Of a stretch of 64,000 nt of DNA, positions 6,646 to 22,908 are shown piece by piece (positions within the stretch are counted from its first letter, which is position 1; the number at the start of each line of letters is the position of its first letter). Source of the DNA: Planctomycetaceae bacterium (GTDB lineage Bacteria; Planctomycetota; Planctomycetia; Pirellulales; Pirellulaceae). A model generated the notes under the pieces. That model made no database searches and was not told the origin of the DNA. It worked only from the letters and a program-made list of their open reading frames with translations. A program made the translations under genes and the position numbers. Location: contig JAIYDN010000070.1 in the NCBI GenBank assembly GCA_027487485.1, positions 124,001-188,000 on the forward strand, given 5' to 3'.

Positions 6646-6810
6646 GTTTCATCCGAGTCAATCGAGTTTTGCTTCGCATTCCAGAACGAGTCTAAGGGCT
6701 AACTTACAAGGGGCTGCTAATGGATCAGGAATAGGGAATACCGAATCAAGCGTCCTATGCAAGTGATTTGGAACGCTACGCAATGGCGAGGCGTTGAACT
6801 TCATGGATAA

Positions 6811-6848
6811 AAAAGAGCCATTGATCCAATTGGATCAATGGCTCTTTT
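6811..6848 (-). terminator. Two-way intrinsic terminator, formerly downstream of ssrA
   Basis: A 13-bp perfect stem (GAGCCATTGATCC paired across AATT with its complement, 6815-6844) is flanked by A-runs on the left and T-runs on the right, so it can act on either strand. It lies 6 bases outside the left attachment copy. Before the island inserted, this hairpin would have stood directly behind the 3' end of ssrA on the minus strand, so it is probably the original tmRNA terminator. Confidence 0.75.
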
Positions 6849-6853
6849 GAGAT

Positions 6854-6875
6854 AGTGGAGGCGGGGGGAATTGAA
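6854..6875. repeat. Left attachment site (22-bp copy of ssrA 3' end)
   Basis: The 22 bases at 6854-6875 (AGTGGAGGCGGGG, then GGAATTGAA) are identical to 22550-22571. The right copy is the functional 3' end of ssrA (T-loop, T-stem and acceptor strand); the left copy is an orphan fragment. This is the standard outcome of tyrosine-integrase insertion into the 3' end of a tmRNA gene. Confidence 0.9.
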
Positions 6876-7137
6876 TAACCTCCAAAATCGCAGGGTTTTC
6901 AAGATTTCTAAAAACCGTGGTACAAAAACGACGCGAACAGAGGTAGTGCCCAACAATGAGGCACCCGAAAACGACCCGCTGTCGATCGCTCGAAAGTCTC
7001 TTTTGTCCTGCCGGCTGGACATCGAAACTCTGATTAATTCCGCCACCCTGGATGACAAGGAAGCTCTTGGGCTACTGAACATGATTTTGTCCGACGTTAG
7101 AACAGCATTGTCACGAATGGAGCGGATGGGTGATTGA
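6871..7137 (+). CDS. 88-codon open frame at the left island end; possible detached integrase C-terminus
   Basis: The frame begins with a TTG inside the attachment repeat and reads NNLQNRRVFKISKN onward, ending LGLLNMILSDVRTALSRMER. Residues 35-85 look like a genuine helical protein segment. In the inserted state the only starts are the TTG in the repeat or GTG codons such as 6946, and no good ribosome binding site is visible. In the excised circle, however, the 22-bp core would join the integrase gene to this frame exactly in phase, producing a 554-residue integrase. It may therefore be a separated 3' exon-like tail rather than a gene of its own. No family is recognised. Confidence 0.5.
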   Translation: MNNLQNRRVFKISKNRGTKTTRTEVVPNNEAPENDPLSIARKSLLSCRLDIETLINSATLDDKEALGLLNMILSDVRTALSRMERMGD

Positions 7138-9860: not shown

Positions 9861-9989
9861 AGGCTATCACGCATCAATAGGTTCTCAATAGCGAGATCCA
9901 TTTTTGACGTTGATTTATTTCTTGATTCATGCAACGTTAACTGGCTTGCAAGCGTTTCGGGATTGAACCCAACAAGACAGAGACCACAG

Positions 9990-15122: not shown

Positions 15123-15737
15123 ATGACGGAAACCCAAGCAACAAAAACCCCAGGAAATGACGTTGAAGAACTGCAAAGGTACCTAAAGTATCTCGCTGAT
15201 GAGAAATCCCACTTGATTACTCGAATCAGCCGCGCCACTTTTGAATACAAGTGCATCGACGAGGAAGTCATCGTTGATTTATTGTGTCTGGCGATTGCGA
15301 AAGGATTTGATTGTGCATCGATTCTTAGGAACGTGATTTGTAACTTTGAGCACGAGGCGAGCGATTTCGACGCTCGCGAAGCTTTCGAAGGATATACCTA
15401 CGACCTAGAGAACGAGATGTATGCTCTAACGTGCAAAATCGATGCTACCGACTATTCCCGAGCCATGCGAGCGAAACGAGCAATCGCAGCTTTTACGGGA
15501 GAAATTCCATGTGATTCAATTTGGGATAGAGGTGGTCGAAGGATTGAAATCTGCGACATGCTGGTATGTGTGTTGCATTTCTTTTGCAACCAGGGGAGGA
15601 ACCCCGCTGAGATGCTCTGTAAAGCGATTGACGTCTTCGTTTCAGGTGTCTCGTTGCAACTTCGATGCGATGAAGCAGAGTCATTCGAAAAGCTCCAAAC
15701 AGCGATACATTGCCATCTCAGTGATGTGTGTTTCTGA
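15123..15737 (+). CDS. Hypothetical island protein (204 aa)
   Basis: The protein begins MTETQATKTPGNDVEELQRY and is acidic and largely helical, with repeated blocks of the type 'DLLCLAIAKGFDCASIL' and 'DMLVCVLHFFCNQGRNPAEM', suggesting two copies of a helical module. There are seven or more cysteines but no clear metal site. A GAGGAAACA ribosome binding site precedes the ATG. It stands between the excisionase-like gene and the primase block and probably shares their transcript. I do not recognise it. Confidence 0.6.
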   Translation: MTETQATKTPGNDVEELQRYLKYLADEKSHLITRISRATFEYKCIDEEVIVDLLCLAIAKGFDCASILRNVICNFEHEASDFDAREAFEGYTYDLENEMYALTCKIDATDYSRAMRAKRAIAAFTGEIPCDSIWDRGGRRIEICDMLVCVLHFFCNQGRNPAEMLCKAIDVFVSGVSLQLRCDEAESFEKLQTAIHCHLSDVCF

Positions 15738-15763
15738 GAAGGCATTCACCGCCCAAGTAGAAA

Positions 15764-15811
15764 CGAGAAAAGCCGACTGGGGGAAGCCATCATGCCCCAG
15801 TCGGCCTCTCG
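15764..15811. other. Long hairpin between the 204-aa gene and the primase block
   Basis: GCCGACTGGGG (15772-15782) pairs perfectly with CCCCAGTCGGC (15795-15805), with an outer CGAGA/TCTCG extension. No T-run follows, so it is not a standard intrinsic terminator. It may attenuate transcription into the primase gene or serve as a structured DNA site. Confidence 0.55.
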
Positions 15812-15922
15812 AAATGTGCGATACGCAGACCGACCAAGTTGGCGTTCGCTATTGTCAGTTATCGCAAGTTACCGCTCTCACACGATCACTTAGACACGAT
15901 CAAACTCACGGAGGTTATTGTC

Positions 15923-15997
15923 ATGCCGGTCGCCGAAAAGTCAACGTCCAGAAAAGTCCGAGATTTCATATCTGCTTTGGCAATGGTGGCATCATGA
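15923..15997 (+). CDS. 24-residue leader peptide coupled to the primase gene
   Basis: A strong ribosome binding site (GGAGG at 15910-15914) precedes ATG 15923, which opens a 24-codon frame, MPVAEKSTSRKVRDFISALA onward. Its TGA overlaps the primase ATG as ATGA at 15994-15997, and the primase has no comparable ribosome binding site of its own. The short frame therefore probably recruits ribosomes and passes them to the primase. Two ACACGATCA copies (15880-15888 and 15894-15902) lie just upstream. Confidence 0.5.
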   Translation: MPVAEKSTSRKVRDFISALAMVAS

Positions 15998-18900
15998 GCC
16001 AAATTGCACGATCCCCGGCAAGCTTTACCGAAGTCAAGAATGCACTTTTTGGACGATGTCAAGAAGTTGCGATGAACGTCTGCAAAATCGATCCAGTTGA
16101 TGTTTCTCAGATTGTCGCGAAACGTCGTTTTATTCACCATTGCGGTGCGAAAAAGGGACGAATGAGCAATCCCGATGCAATGATCGGAGGTTGCGATGGA
16201 TGCAAAGCAAAATGGAGCGGTCCAATCGATTTTGTTATGCAAGAATTGCGAGTCGACAAATACGAAGCAAAAGACCTGCTTGCAGCATACTTTGGAATCG
16301 AAGGAGCCAGCCGGGGAGGGGTTTCTTCGCGACCTCGAGCGAAAACGCAAGCCATCGATAAAAATGTGAAAGCAGAACCAATTGAACTCTCAGAGGATGG
16401 TTATTCTCGGCACAAACAAATTCTGACGGTTAGCGAATCCAATGAATCTATGATGCTGGTTTGCGCGAAGCACAAACGCGGCGTAACGGTAGATGCTCTT
16501 CTTCAGATTGGAGCTGTTTGCGCTTACTGGCAACAGTCCGAGAAATCAAAAAAACAATATGTGATCGCAATCCCGGTTTACGCAGGGCCAAAGTTAGACC
16601 TCGTGAACTACATCCTCTACGGTCCAACGGGCAAAATTTGGGTCAGGGAAAAAAGCGATGGAGGCGATTGGATCGATACCCATGTTTCGAAACGTCTGGC
16701 TTTCGGTCAAAACGATGAAGATCGGAAACGCGGAGTCAAATTCGATCGAAACGGTATTTGTTGCTCGTTGGCCGTTCGAGATGCAATACTGCGAGGTCAA
16801 ATAATTGACGGGGCTCGGCTTGCAAAGTTCGAAGGCGATAGCGACCTTTTGGTTGCGTTGCCGCTGTTGACATTAGAGGATTCTTGGATCGCCTGGACGA
16901 ACAACGATGGCGCTCGGTCAACTCATGTATTTGACTGGCTTATCGGATTGTTGTCACCGCTGGGAATCCAGGAGTCAATCGTTGTGCACGATCGCGACGA
17001 AGCTGGTGAGCTCGGAGCGATCGAATGTGCGAAACGTCTAGGCCAATTGTCTCCGACGAAAATCGTTAAGCTTCCCCTCGATTACAAAACGAAAAAAGGT
17101 CCTGATTTTCGCGACTATGTCAATGTCCCAAATGGCAAAGCGGAGCTGCTTGAGCTGATTGCAAATACCGAAGTCGGAATTTCAGATAACGACAGTAACT
17201 CGTATGACGAATTAGGCTCTGAAGAGAGAACGGTCAAAAAGGCCTTAGCACCTGAAGTGTACGTCACTGCAGATGAAGCAGTTGTCGCAGAACAAGTCGT
17301 TTGCAATCTCGGGCTTCTGGGCTGGAATTCGCCATGGATTCCCGGCGAGAATCAAGACTCGCTTCGAGTTTATTGCCGTGGGGGTTGGCTCGTCAACATT
17401 ACCCACAGTGAAGATCCAGGCAGCATTGGGAAGATCGGAATCAAGAATATTCCATTGCCGATTGTTCGAGAAAGAATAACACAGTCATCTTACCTAATTG
17501 TTGAAGACGCGAAGGGCAACTTGAAACACGGCCATCCACCGACTTGGCTTTTGGATTCGGTCTTTCAACGAGGGAATTTTGGAGGCTATATCAAGCCATT
17601 GGTTGGTGTCATCAACTCACCGACGATTCGCCCCGATGGCTCAATTCTCCAAGAGCCAGGCTATGACGCCGATACTGGCCTGATCTACCGACCCAGCATG
17701 GAATATCCACAAATACCTGAGCTTCCAACAAAAGACGATTCGAAATTAGCAATTGATCGTCTGTTTGATGTCGTGTCAGATTTCCCGTTCGTAGCTGACG
17801 CGGACAGATCCGCATGGGTAGCACTGCTTTTGTCGTTGGTTGGACGTGCATGTGTTAGTGGTTGCGTACCATTGTTTGCAATTACTGCCACCTGCGCCGG
17901 AAGCGGAAAAGGGCTGTTGGCCGATGTCGCAACACAGATTGCATACGGCCACCCAGTAAGTAAGCGATCTTTCCAAAGAGACGATGTAGAACTTTCGAAG
18001 TTCATAAGTACGCTTCTTTTTGAATCCGAAAAATGCCACATCTTTGACAACCTATCTCGACCACTTCAAGGGGATTCGCTCGATGTAGTTTTGACATCGA
18101 CAGTCATGAAAGATCGACTGTTGAGCAAGACTAAATCCACTGGAGAGATGCCTGCAAGGACAGTATGGATTGCGACAGGCAACAACATTACTTACGGAGG
18201 AGACACTGGAAGACGCGTTCTACCAATTCGTCTCGATCCCGATACTGAGAGTCCTGAAAAACGCGACGGTTTCTCTCACCCTAATCTGATCGACTGGGCT
18301 AAAGCAAACAGAGCAACACTTGTTTGTGACTCGCTAACAATACTCAGGGCGTTTTTCGTAGCGAAGCCAGCACTGAAAATCACGACCTGGGGGTCATTCG
18401 AGTCATGGCTTGAAACCATTTGCGCTTCGATTGTATTTGCCGGTGGGGCGGACCCAACACCAACAAGGGATGAGGCGAACGAAAACGATGACTCGAAAGA
18501 GTTAGTGCGAATGGTTATCGATGCATTCGACGAAGCAGATCCAGATAGAGAAGGAATGACAGTTCGGCAGATCGAAAACCTAATCAAGAACTACCCAAAG
18601 ACTTACCCGGCCTTAGTCGAATGTTCTGGCGAAATTTGCGGAACCATTTTTATACCAAAACGGTTCTCCGCCAAATTACGCTCCATCGAGGGCCGAGTGG
18701 TTAACAAGAAGAAAATTTCAAAAGATGACGCTGGTAAAAATCTGAAACGATGGAGGGTTAGTTTGGTTGTCGACGAAAACGGGGGAACTAACCCCAAACT
18801 AACCAACGAACTAACCCAAGAGGAGCTGCAAAAACACAGTGAAAAGACACCTAGGGTTAGTTTGGTTAGTTCTCTTTTGGATTCTACGCGTAGAGAGATT

Positions 18901-19113
18901 AACGAAGTGCCGGAGTCATGTCATGAATCATCATGTATACGTATGGGCGACTCTCTAAACCGAACTAACCAAACTAACCCAACTAACCCCGCTTCGAATG
19001 ACGCTTGCCCGAAGTGTGGCTGTATCCTCGACATGGGTATCGAAATCAACGGTTACGCCAATTTTTCGTGCATGAAGTGCAATTTCATTGAGCCAAGGTT
19101 TATTGGAGGCTAA
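15994..19113 (+). CDS. Primase-helicase of the island (CHC2/Toprim-like plus P-loop ATPase)
   Basis: From the coupled ATG at 15994 the protein has 1039 residues. The N-terminus has zinc-finger spacing typical of primases (C50, then CDGC at C67/C70). A Toprim-like patch HDRDEAGELGAIE lies at about 333. Near residue 636 comes a Walker A variant ATCAGSGKGLL, followed by CHIFDNLSRP (Walker B region) and the arginine-finger-like GRRVLPIRLD, as in plasmid and phage primase-helicases. The C-terminus ends in a four-cysteine zinc ribbon (CPKCG, then CMKCNF). The frame is open for 184 codons upstream of 15994, but that part overlaps the 204-aa gene and lacks protein-like text. It would drive replication of the excised island. 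Confidence 0.78.
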   Translation: MSQIARSPASFTEVKNALFGRCQEVAMNVCKIDPVDVSQIVAKRRFIHHCGAKKGRMSNPDAMIGGCDGCKAKWSGPIDFVMQELRVDKYEAKDLLAAYFGIEGASRGGVSSRPRAKTQAIDKNVKAEPIELSEDGYSRHKQILTVSESNESMMLVCAKHKRGVTVDALLQIGAVCAYWQQSEKSKKQYVIAIPVYAGPKLDLVNYILYGPTGKIWVREKSDGGDWIDTHVSKRLAFGQNDEDRKRGVKFDRNGICCSLAVRDAILRGQIIDGARLAKFEGDSDLLVALPLLTLEDSWIAWTNNDGARSTHVFDWLIGLLSPLGIQESIVVHDRDEAGELGAIECAKRLGQLSPTKIVKLPLDYKTKKGPDFRDYVNVPNGKAELLELIANTEVGISDNDSNSYDELGSEERTVKKALAPEVYVTADEAVVAEQVVCNLGLLGWNSPWIPGENQDSLRVYCRGGWLVNITHSEDPGSIGKIGIKNIPLPIVRERITQSSYLIVEDAKGNLKHGHPPTWLLDSVFQRGNFGGYIKPLVGVINSPTIRPDGSILQEPGYDADTGLIYRPSMEYPQIPELPTKDDSKLAIDRLFDVVSDFPFVADADRSAWVALLLSLVGRACVSGCVPLFAITATCAGSGKGLLADVATQIAYGHPVSKRSFQRDDVELSKFISTLLFESEKCHIFDNLSRPLQGDSLDVVLTSTVMKDRLLSKTKSTGEMPARTVWIATGNNITYGGDTGRRVLPIRLDPDTESPEKRDGFSHPNLIDWAKANRATLVCDSLTILRAFFVAKPALKITTWGSFESWLETICASIVFAGGADPTPTRDEANENDDSKELVRMVIDAFDEADPDREGMTVRQIENLIKNYPKTYPALVECSGEICGTIFIPKRFSAKLRSIEGRVVNKKKISKDDAGKNLKRWRVSLVVDENGGTNPKLTNELTQEELQKHSEKTPRVSLVSSLLDSTRREINEVPESCHESSCIRMGDSLNRTNQTNPTNPASNDACPKCGCILDMGIEINGYANFSCMKCNFIEPRFIGG

Positions 19114-21168: not shown

Positions 21169-22614
21169 ATGGCATCAATTGCAACATCACCAAACGGCCA
21201 TCGGCGAATTCTGTTTTACGACGCGAACAAGAACCGAAAGGCCGTCCACCTTGGCAAGTGCAGCGAACGTAATGCACTAAAAGTGAAAACTCGAGTAGAG
21301 TCCCTACTTGTTACCAAGCTACTTGGAAATCCGATCGATCAAGATGATGCGGTTTGGCTCGCAGGTGATGGAAAGGAATTCAGAGCCAAGCTCGAAAAGG
21401 TTGGGCTTGTTGAGTGCTCCACCCCCGAACCTGAGAAGGTCCAAACAACCATGGCGGAGTTTCTAGAAAGCTACCTTTTACGCAACTGCCCAAACAAGAA
21501 GCCCGCTACAAGAATCGTTTGGCGCCAAGTAGTGAACTCGCTCAATAAGCATTTGCCGAAAGGGATTGCTTTGAACGAGGTTACTGCGGGGCATGCTCGG
21601 GAGTATCTCGAAAAACTAGTTGCCCAACGAAGAAAGAGTAAAGACGGAACAATCCGAAAGCTTTCTTCAACGACCATCCACAAGCGTATTTCGTTTGCTC
21701 GTCAGTTCTTCCAGGATGCGGTCGATTGGGAGCTGATATGGAAAAATCCATTCGCAAAGATCAAAACGAGTGGTACGTCTCTCAAGAGCAATGTTGAGGT
21801 TCCTCGGGAGCAAATCGAGCTGATACTAGCCAAGTGCAATTCCACTTGGAAAGGGATCGTTGCCCTATCTCGATTCGGCGGGCTTCGCTGTCCCTCGGAA
21901 ACCCTATCTCTAACCTGGGGTGATATCGATTGGGAACTTGGACGAATGAGCATCCCAGAGCCCAAAGTAGAACACCATGAAGGGCGCGGGGTCCGATCGT
22001 GCCCACTCTTTCCCGAATTGAGGGTGATTTTGGAAGATCTGTTCGCGGAAGCCACGATTGACGGAAAGTACCCATCCGCCGATTCGTTTGTAATCGATAA
22101 GCAGTCTTACAGAGATGCGGCAATGCGGCCAGGCGGATGGGCTAATGCAAATTTGCGAACCCAGCTCCTAAAGATTATGCGACGGGCAGGGGTCTCGCCC
22201 TGGAAGCGACTTTTCCATTCGATGCGAGCAACTAGGCAAACTGAGCTCGAACGGGAATTTCCTCTGCATGTGGTTTGTAGCTGGCTCGGGAACACCGAGG
22301 CGGTCGCCAAAAAGAGCTACCTGCTAGTGACCGATGCCGATTTTGCGAAAGCGGTCTCCAAGCCTTCGCCTGAACCGCCGGTTGAGCCCGTGCGCCGTGA
22401 GACGAAAACGACGCGCCGTGAGACAAAATCGACCCTCCGTGAGACAAAAACGACGCCGCACCGAGCACGCAGAATGTCGCAAGAACAAGAAAAAACCCTG
22501 GGGATCTCATTGAAAACTTTTGTTTTCCGTGAAATTCCCAGGGCTTCCAAGTGGAGGCGGGGGGAATTGAACCCCCGTCCCGCGATACTTCCAACCTGGC
22601 ATCTACATGTGTAG
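21169..22614 (+). CDS. Tyrosine integrase of the island, reading through attR into ssrA
   Basis: The 481-residue protein has the tyrosine recombinase layout: a core-binding SAM-like domain (about 90-190, MAEFLESYLL to NPFAKI) and a catalytic domain with R240 (FGGLRCPSE), H350 and R353 (HSMRATRQ), tryptophan in VVCSWLGN and nucleophile Y384 (KKSYLLV). It catalyses insertion into and excision from ssrA. After Y384 comes a tail with three RRETKTT-type repeats. The last 21 residues, SKWRRGELNPRPAILPTWHL and one more, are encoded by attR and by the tmRNA gene on the opposite strand. In the excised circle this tail would be replaced by the frame at 6871-7137. The intact catalytic set suggests an active enzyme. 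Confidence 0.9.
   Translation: MASIATSPNGHRRILFYDANKNRKAVHLGKCSERNALKVKTRVESLLVTKLLGNPIDQDDAVWLAGDGKEFRAKLEKVGLVECSTPEPEKVQTTMAEFLESYLLRNCPNKKPATRIVWRQVVNSLNKHLPKGIALNEVTAGHAREYLEKLVAQRRKSKDGTIRKLSSTTIHKRISFARQFFQDAVDWELIWKNPFAKIKTSGTSLKSNVEVPREQIELILAKCNSTWKGIVALSRFGGLRCPSETLSLTWGDIDWELGRMSIPEPKVEHHEGRGVRSCPLFPELRVILEDLFAEATIDGKYPSADSFVIDKQSYRDAAMRPGGWANANLRTQLLKIMRRAGVSPWKRLFHSMRATRQTELEREFPLHVVCSWLGNTEAVAKKSYLLVTDADFAKAVSKPSPEPPVEPVRRETKTTRRETKSTLRETKTTPHRARRMSQEQEKTLGISLKTFVFREIPRASKWRRGELNPRPAILPTWHLHV
22393..22455 (+). repeat. Three 21-bp tandem repeats in the integrase tail
   Basis: Three direct copies of a 21-bp unit (first copy begins CGCCGTGAGACGAAAACGAC) encode RRETKTT, RRETKST and LRETKTT. 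They differ at 3-4 positions from each other. They lie about 95 bp before the attachment core, so they may be either arm-type integrase binding sites or only a flexible basic linker. Confidence 0.7.
22490..22543 (-). terminator. Island-borne terminator behind ssrA (minus strand)
   Basis: On the minus strand, CCCTGGGAAT and its partner ATCCCCAGGG form a stem with an inner GAAAAC/GTTTTC pairing, followed by six T residues. It lies 7 bases beyond the right attachment site, inside the integrase coding region. It supplies ssrA with a terminator in place of the one separated by the island (6811-6848). Confidence 0.72.
22550..22571. repeat. Right attachment site (ssrA 3' end)
   Basis: These 22 bases match 6854-6875 exactly and comprise the last 20 bases of tmRNA plus two flanking bases. 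The crossover therefore leaves tmRNA sequence unchanged. Confidence 0.9.
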
Positions 22615-22908
22615 CCAACTGTTATTTGTCTCGCCTACTGCGTTCGTTGTTGACATCGGTGCAGTACGCCAGCCTCGAGCTTTTTTAACACCACCAGTGC
22701 GAGACACGTGATTGTGCGATTCGGAATTGCGACAGGTATTCAAGCGCCTCCGACGGGCCCCTGGTACCTGAGAAGCCTAAACTAGGCCGCTAGTGCGAGG
22801 TTTTCCTCTGCAGTTACTTTTTTTAATCGGCTTTTTACGTGGCCAACCGATCAACCACGACATGCCACCAAAATCTTCAATTTATCCGGTCGATTCCAGA
22901 TCGCCCCC
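22552..22908 (-). ncRNA. ssrA: Transfer-messenger RNA (tmRNA)
   Basis: The 357-base minus-strand RNA starts GGGGGCGATCTGGAATCGAC and ends in a T-arm (GGGGG TTCAATT CCCCC) and CGCCUCC acceptor strand, which pairs with GGGGGCG of the 5' end with one G-U pair. The discriminator A is encoded, but CCA is not. The internal reading frame ends TAEENLALAA and then TAG (stop at 22782-22784), a typical degradation tag. tmRNA with SmpB rescues stalled ribosomes and tags the incomplete protein for proteolysis. The gene is the integration site of the island and remains complete. Confidence 0.93.

Follow-up and report, generated by a model that had tools for sequence, protein, structure and literature searches.

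Mycobacteriophages with attP in the repressor gene have the C-terminus of a regulatory protein rewritten upon integration. A recombinase that is rewritten through its own integration has a precedent in Myxococcus phage Mx8, going by the accessible portions of three papers (PMC6070905, PMC4383910, PMC4701971), so that the novelty claimed for such rewriting in the initial annotation of this locus does not stand. As described in those portions, attP lies within the Mx8 int coding sequence, and int acquires another 3′ end upon integration (PMC6070905); a 112-residue C-terminus is swapped for 13 residues, and the modified enzyme is termed less active in one review (PMC4701971) and is credited with a changed specificity in another (PMC6070905). 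The Islander authors, in the available part of their paper, also allow for integrases extending across attP (PMC4383910). In the Mx8 record we found a tRNA-T-loop-like sequence 118 codons ahead of the end of int.

The window, by which we mean the whole 64,000-nucleotide stretch of a Planctomycetaceae genome analyzed here, contains a 15.7-kb island at ssrA bounded by an exact 22-nt identity (Table 1). The integrase ORF runs through the right copy of this core, as annotated initially, and comprises 481 codons (21169–22614), of which 468 are common to both forms and 13 lie past the core inside the tmRNA; the 15 tmRNA-templated residues given earlier hold if counting starts at the TTG, the number encoded past the core being 13. 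Past the left core, a frame in the identical phase stays open to 7137, while the two other frames close at 0 and 22 codons. Joining 22571 to 6876 reproduced the uninterrupted 554-residue integrase that had been proposed (468 + 86 residues). By itself the tail frame is weak evidence and could be due to chance, as 50 of 3000 dinucleotide shuffles also leave this frame open for 86 or more codons. An empty site was not seen among relatives with intact ssrA, which have the tmRNA, and in one case also the right flank, in common with the window; in other relatives the left flank does not lie beside ssrA, and homology there stops at 6809.

Table 1. Features of the window island and its integrase gene (window coordinates).
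Feature	Position	Strand	Basis and remarks
Integrase portion common to both forms	21169–22571	+	468 residues including the junction-straddling Asn codon; PF13102 and PF00589 matches; invariant residues
C-terminus, integrated form	22572–22614	+	13 residues plus stop, antisense to tmRNA
Core, right copy	22550–22571	+	3′ end of ssrA
Core, left copy	6854–6875	+	Displaced ssrA 3′ fragment
Detached in-frame tail, free form	6876–7137	+	86 residues plus stop; joined frame, tail homology
ssrA (tmRNA), integration target	22551–22908	-	ARAGORN; Rfam RF00023, 154.4 bits
Three 21-nt direct repeats in integrase CDS	22392–22454	+	Likely arm-type sites, function inferred
13-nt repeat-core copy in tail	6922–6934	+	Matches 22444–22456; longer than in 30 of 30 control windows; likely right-arm site, function inferred
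Hairpin with U run in integrase gene, antisense	22491–22548	-	dG -32.2 kcal/mol, z -5.0; likely replacement terminator of ssrA
Perfect palindrome, 19-nt arms, immediately outside left core	6811–6848	.	Probably former ssrA terminator, inferred from position

Among the other island genes, the protein encoded at 9963–13316 matches type IIG restriction-modification models (PADLOC E 2.6e-145; PF07669), and a STAND/AAA-type ATPase gene (PF20703, 7275–8519) adjoins the detached tail. The C-terminal part of a 1223-codon ORF (15442–19113) matches phage primase-like PHROGs, a match by which the island may be a phage satellite or remnant.

The window protein has the domains of a lambda-type integrase, a PF00589 catalytic domain and a SAM-like core-binding domain. 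PF13102 scored above its cut-off, and PF00589 (E 2.4e-5, 24.6 bits) lay slightly below its cut-off of 27.1, which was exceeded in all five tail-bearing relatives examined. Residues R240, K266, R353, W372, and Y384, which are invariant and which we take to be the catalytic residues, all lie on the N-terminal side of the core (near residue 460), which could leave the integrated form active. An AlphaFold2 model of a natural full-length relative (L110; 14 sequences) was mostly confident for residues 1–375, fell below pLDDT 50 across the 84-residue stretch spanning attP (376–459), and placed two helices beyond it (461–471 and 477–491; block mean pLDDT 79–92) that form a helical hairpin tail. The best PDB match of this model was lambda integrase (1z1b, E 6.2e-11), giving the relative a lambda-Int-like fold. 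The attP-spanning stretch is thus predicted to code for a disordered tether, with a small folded module beyond it. Pfam holds no family matching the window tail alone or the tail portions of five natural full-length relatives.

Integrase matches were present in 194 of the 241 genomes of the same GTDB family. From 512 relatives found at genome loci the best 80 were kept, 75 of which were not cut off; among these 75, 60 frames end in a tRNA or tmRNA gene, 7 run through one, 3 stop ahead of one, and 5 have none. A phylum-wide even draw gave matches at E ≤ 1e-30 in 13 of 149 genomes; apart from the window, this comprised 24 loci, 20 of them ending within a tRNA gene, one stopping before it, and three showing none. 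Target genes include those for Ser, Ala, Met, Val, Glu, Leu, Arg, Gln, Asn, and Lys tRNAs and for tmRNA. Not one of 24 XerC/D-like control genes ended in a tRNA; this is a weak control, with no tRNA nearby, 6 of the 30 control genes without an ORF, and at least 4 of the 24 chosen frames looking wrong. Loci L142–L221 are partly the same places as L039–L078, and read-through counts are not independent across sets; the classification of L204 depends on an ARAGORN “tmRNA*” call, and L040 has a stop inside its N-terminal frame. The window integrase had no tblastn match in plasmid and phage collections. In several genomes of the genus there are shorter integrases, nearly identical to one another, that close shortly past the catalytic tyrosine and have no tRNA at their end (L010, L013, L014, L018, L022). 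One genome (G082, contig C1) holds four integrase matches with identical scores near 2626725, 2635378, 2644032, and 4571749, three of them ~8.65 kb apart in what looks like a tandem array of one element.

In related islands with both cores mapped, an in-frame tail was present in 34 of 37 (19/21, 7/8, and 8/8 in three sets). The initial annotation had named a frame closed right after the core in homologs as an observation that would speak against it, and this is not the pattern observed. The first set consists of the window and 20 of 40 fetched regions with a core pair accepted by eye (the other 20 gave no accepted pair; L045, with a 13-nt core candidate and a broken integrase frame, was set aside), and the second of eight islands, from a repeat at nine of the 80 genome loci, L144 being dropped as the same place as L040. 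Cores of 13–16 nt are less certain (L050, L052, L054, L069, L076, L159). The islands without an in-frame tail (L053 and L069 in the first set, L171 in the second) have integrases that stop before the core. Among the 29 islands of these two sets, the integrase frame reaches the core in 26 and in every one of them continues open for at least 129 nt past it (median 186 nt), compared with 10 of 52 measurements in other frames (Mann–Whitney p 4e-8). The phase of the integrase relative to the tRNA T loop varies among islands with a tail (20, 4, and 2), and the tail phase goes along with it. Integrases ending ahead of the core were found at nine viral loci and at L053, L069, L150, L163, L171, and L322, so the tail is dispensable or was lost in some members; because such members exist, we regard it as a putative modifier outside the catalytic minimum. 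In L069 and L171, tail-like sequence past the core lies in another frame than the integrase, perhaps a decayed fused gene.

The integrase and tail also occur as one natural gene, a state that serves here as a proxy for the free circle of the window island. Of 41 viral contigs with a relative, six distinct ones hold both in a single ORF (L101, L109/L110, L114/L116, L119, L125, and L129/L141), with no tRNA gene at the ORF. The core within the ORF matches tRNA 3′ ends of other genomes across 21 nt in L101 and L129 and across at most 13 nt in the others, L125 giving no such match. Two 35.7-kb viral contigs were searched for circularity, which could not be demonstrated. A profile built from the six single-ORF viral tails alone recognized, in the integrase frame, 14 of 29 joined tails: 8 of 21 islands of the first set at E ≤ 1.5e-4, with one further strong match among 129 frames (L069, 6e-8, in a non-integrase frame), and 6 of 8 of the second at E ≤ 1.2e-5, where the best other frame was in L171 (0.009). 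The codon positions of the conserved block differ from one another in a coding-like way (0.52, 0.44, and 0.64 over 210 pairs from 21 blocks, that of L064 being out of register), in sequences near saturation. The natural-tail profile does not list the window tail at E ≤ 20, which makes this tail a second type; the tail of genome G107 scored E 10. A leave-one-out profile over mixed tail types recognized 10 of 19 tails at E ≤ 0.015 and missed the other nine, including that of the window (4.3 bits; best shuffle 7.2).

Tails of the window type are present at four other loci. In G107, of the same genus, 94 codons stay open in the same frame after a displaced piece of tmRNA in which the 20 nt are identical, and this stretch is homologous to the tail of the window. 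On that contig the integrase gene is truncated where the contig stops, and a different integrase reads into the tmRNA; G107 (contigs C70 and C395) has two different tmRNA-type integrases in one genome, possibly from two islands in tandem at ssrA. The window's own genome holds a second island at a tRNA-Ser gene (contig C42), whose integrase is a tyrosine recombinase (PF00589 E 1e-13) that reads into the tRNA and has no significant BLASTP similarity to the window integrase (E 0.27); past its core lies a homologous tail of the window type. Another such tail occurs at a tRNA-Cys gene in G096. In a leave-one-out profile of five members the window tail scored 42.8 bits (E 2.7e-12; best shuffle 6.2), with the integrase frame alone scoring among six, the E-values of this type being partly selected in that L035 and C42, and weakly also G096, were picked up through their similarity to the window tail, whereas G107 was found through the tmRNA core alone. 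No core was mapped before the tail in L035, and L034, with an internal stop, was left out of the set. The comparison of homologs proposed in the initial annotation thus turned up a conserved tail, and the G107 homology and profile matches contradict the lack of conservation that it had named as a second possible objection. When the window tail was used in a plain sequence search, 5 of 241 genomes gave a match at E ≤ 0.01, one of them its own genome, which argues that this type is rare or diverges quickly.

The C42-type integrases form a second lineage, in which 11 of 30 loci end inside a tRNA gene, 7 run through it, 3 stop before it, 6 show none, and 3 are cut. A core could be mapped in 8 of 13 regions, and an in-frame tail followed at all eight, one of merely 27 residues. 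The natural-tail profile recognized 4 of these 8 tails at E ≤ 0.002 (for a set size of 100 that we chose), and two others are of the window type. Both tail types therefore occur in both integrase lineages, and the C42 and G106 integrases are 75% identical yet differ in tail type; from this the tails look portable between lineages. As judged from sequence, the arrangement is widespread in Planctomycetota, with conserved tail modules common to integrase lineages.

The DNA between the catalytic domain and the tail appears to carry further layers. For 19 of 29 islands, direct repeats common to the pre-core and post-core stretches surpassed each of 30 control windows, and for the other 10 they did not; they lie at -189 to -78 before the core in clear cases and at +31 to +73 after it, and are likely arm-type sites. 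Of 101 islands, 58 have a terminator-like hairpin on the tRNA-sense strand at most 200 nt from the tRNA 3′ end, compared with a shuffle expectation of 16.7 and with 8 islands for the integrase-sense strand. Neither the window's own hairpin nor the left palindrome came up in simple terminator scans; going by position and folding, the island seems to bring ssrA a new terminator, with the palindrome probably the old one.

Taken together, the island's attP quite probably lies inside the integrase gene, with a free form that would be full-length and end in the tail and an integrated form that would lack it. In the free circle, the gene would be read across attP to give a lambda-Int-like body, a disordered linker, and the conserved C-terminal tail. 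A crossover within the core sequence at the ssrA 3′ end would strand the tail 15.7 kb off, at the opposite end of the island, and leave a gene that retains the catalytic domain and ends in residues antisense to the tmRNA. The tail most likely helps establishment, whether at integration or in assembly on attP; without it, the balance would move among integration, maintenance, and excision, in line with what is reported for Mx8. Circle formation here, the production of both forms, and the role of the tail are what we infer from this arrangement, and we favor state-dependent control of integration versus excision. A more inclusive reading, which we put forward tentatively and at just under even confidence, is that these are phylum-wide, self-editing bacterial integrases that would carry a portable helical tail while free and whose loss of it would set the direction of the reaction, the linker DNA serving in several layers at once as protein-coding sequence, left arm sites, core, right arm site, and antisense terminator.

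Three other explanations bear on the same observations. Open frames past the left core might be meaningless if antisense tRNA ends are often open, in keeping with the dinucleotide shuffles and with the 10 of 52 other-frame measurements above; the homologous G107 tail, which follows the same displaced piece of tmRNA with its frame unchanged, together with the profile tests, leaves this hardly credible. Conservation of the tail and of the arrangement in relatives is what places the arrangement above chance. A separate small gene translated alone when integrated, for example for a directionality factor or inhibitor, would fit the in-frame ATG, GTG, or TTG found in 21 of 21 tails listed and the first start in the window tail, a GTG at codon position 23 ahead of the conserved block. 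It is nonetheless very improbable given the natural single-ORF fusions and the fact that the tail follows the integrase frame in all but three mapped islands despite the varying tRNA phase.

A stronger case, still unlikely in our view, is that the 3′ end of the integrase gene holds arm sites, terminator, and core purely for compactness, tail loss being without regulatory meaning. The linker repeats that match the tail, the excess of antisense terminator-like hairpins, and the existence of tail-less members all accord with this explanation. What speaks against it is the tail itself, a conserved and confidently modeled helical module whose types are common to divergent integrases, which suggests a function of its own.

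On the reading that the tail is an integrase module lost upon integration, an arrangement known from Mx8 becomes a widespread one with a definable tail, and the role of the lost C-terminus becomes testable in many natural island pairs, partly in cultured species such as Lacipirellula limnantheis I41, which holds the mapped island L159. It would also account for the recurring tRNA-antisense C-termini of planctomycete integrases. For tool mining it matters that an integrase gene taken from an integrated island of these bacteria would come without the free-form C-terminus. The accessible text of a 2021 review places self-disrupting recombinases in archaea only (PMC8371274), with which the present islands are at odds, though here the tail alone is lost.

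Compared with the systems described, as far as the available portions of the sources go, the planctomycete islands are most like Mx8, where attP likewise lies inside int and integration swaps the C-terminus; a core in the coding frame and an in-frame continuation for the free form were found in the window, the mapped islands, and the single-ORF relatives. BLASTP of Mx8 Int against the two planctomycete integrases gave no similarity (best E 2.5 and 5.8), and neither tail profile matched Mx8 Int, leaving it without a recognizable sequence relationship to them; the arrangement is of the same kind, which does not imply the same family. The archaeal SSV-type suicidal integrases also have the site in the integrase gene, which integration parts (PMC8371274, in the portion available), but there the N-terminal part is separated from the part with the catalytic domain, whereas here R240–Y384 precede the core, the catalytic domain stays intact, and the tail alone is lost. 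Streptococcal ICEs in rumA exchange 3′ parts of target and integrase gene and so alter the C-terminus, according to the accessible text of PMC4701971; they differ in having a serine recombinase, a protein-coding target, and frame changes. In the mycobacteriophage attP-in-repressor systems it is the repressor that is rewritten, and in the planctomycete islands the recombinase. In the open-access literature, outside which most subscription papers lie, we found no description of the planctomycete set, the conserved tail modules, or the antisense terminators. Tyrosine recombinase cases described in bacteria, in the parts of the sources available, are Mx8 and Mx9, as against the phylum-wide recurrence with conserved tails seen here. 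The principle is known from Mx8; what is new is its spread across the Planctomycetota and the conserved tail modules common to integrase lineages.
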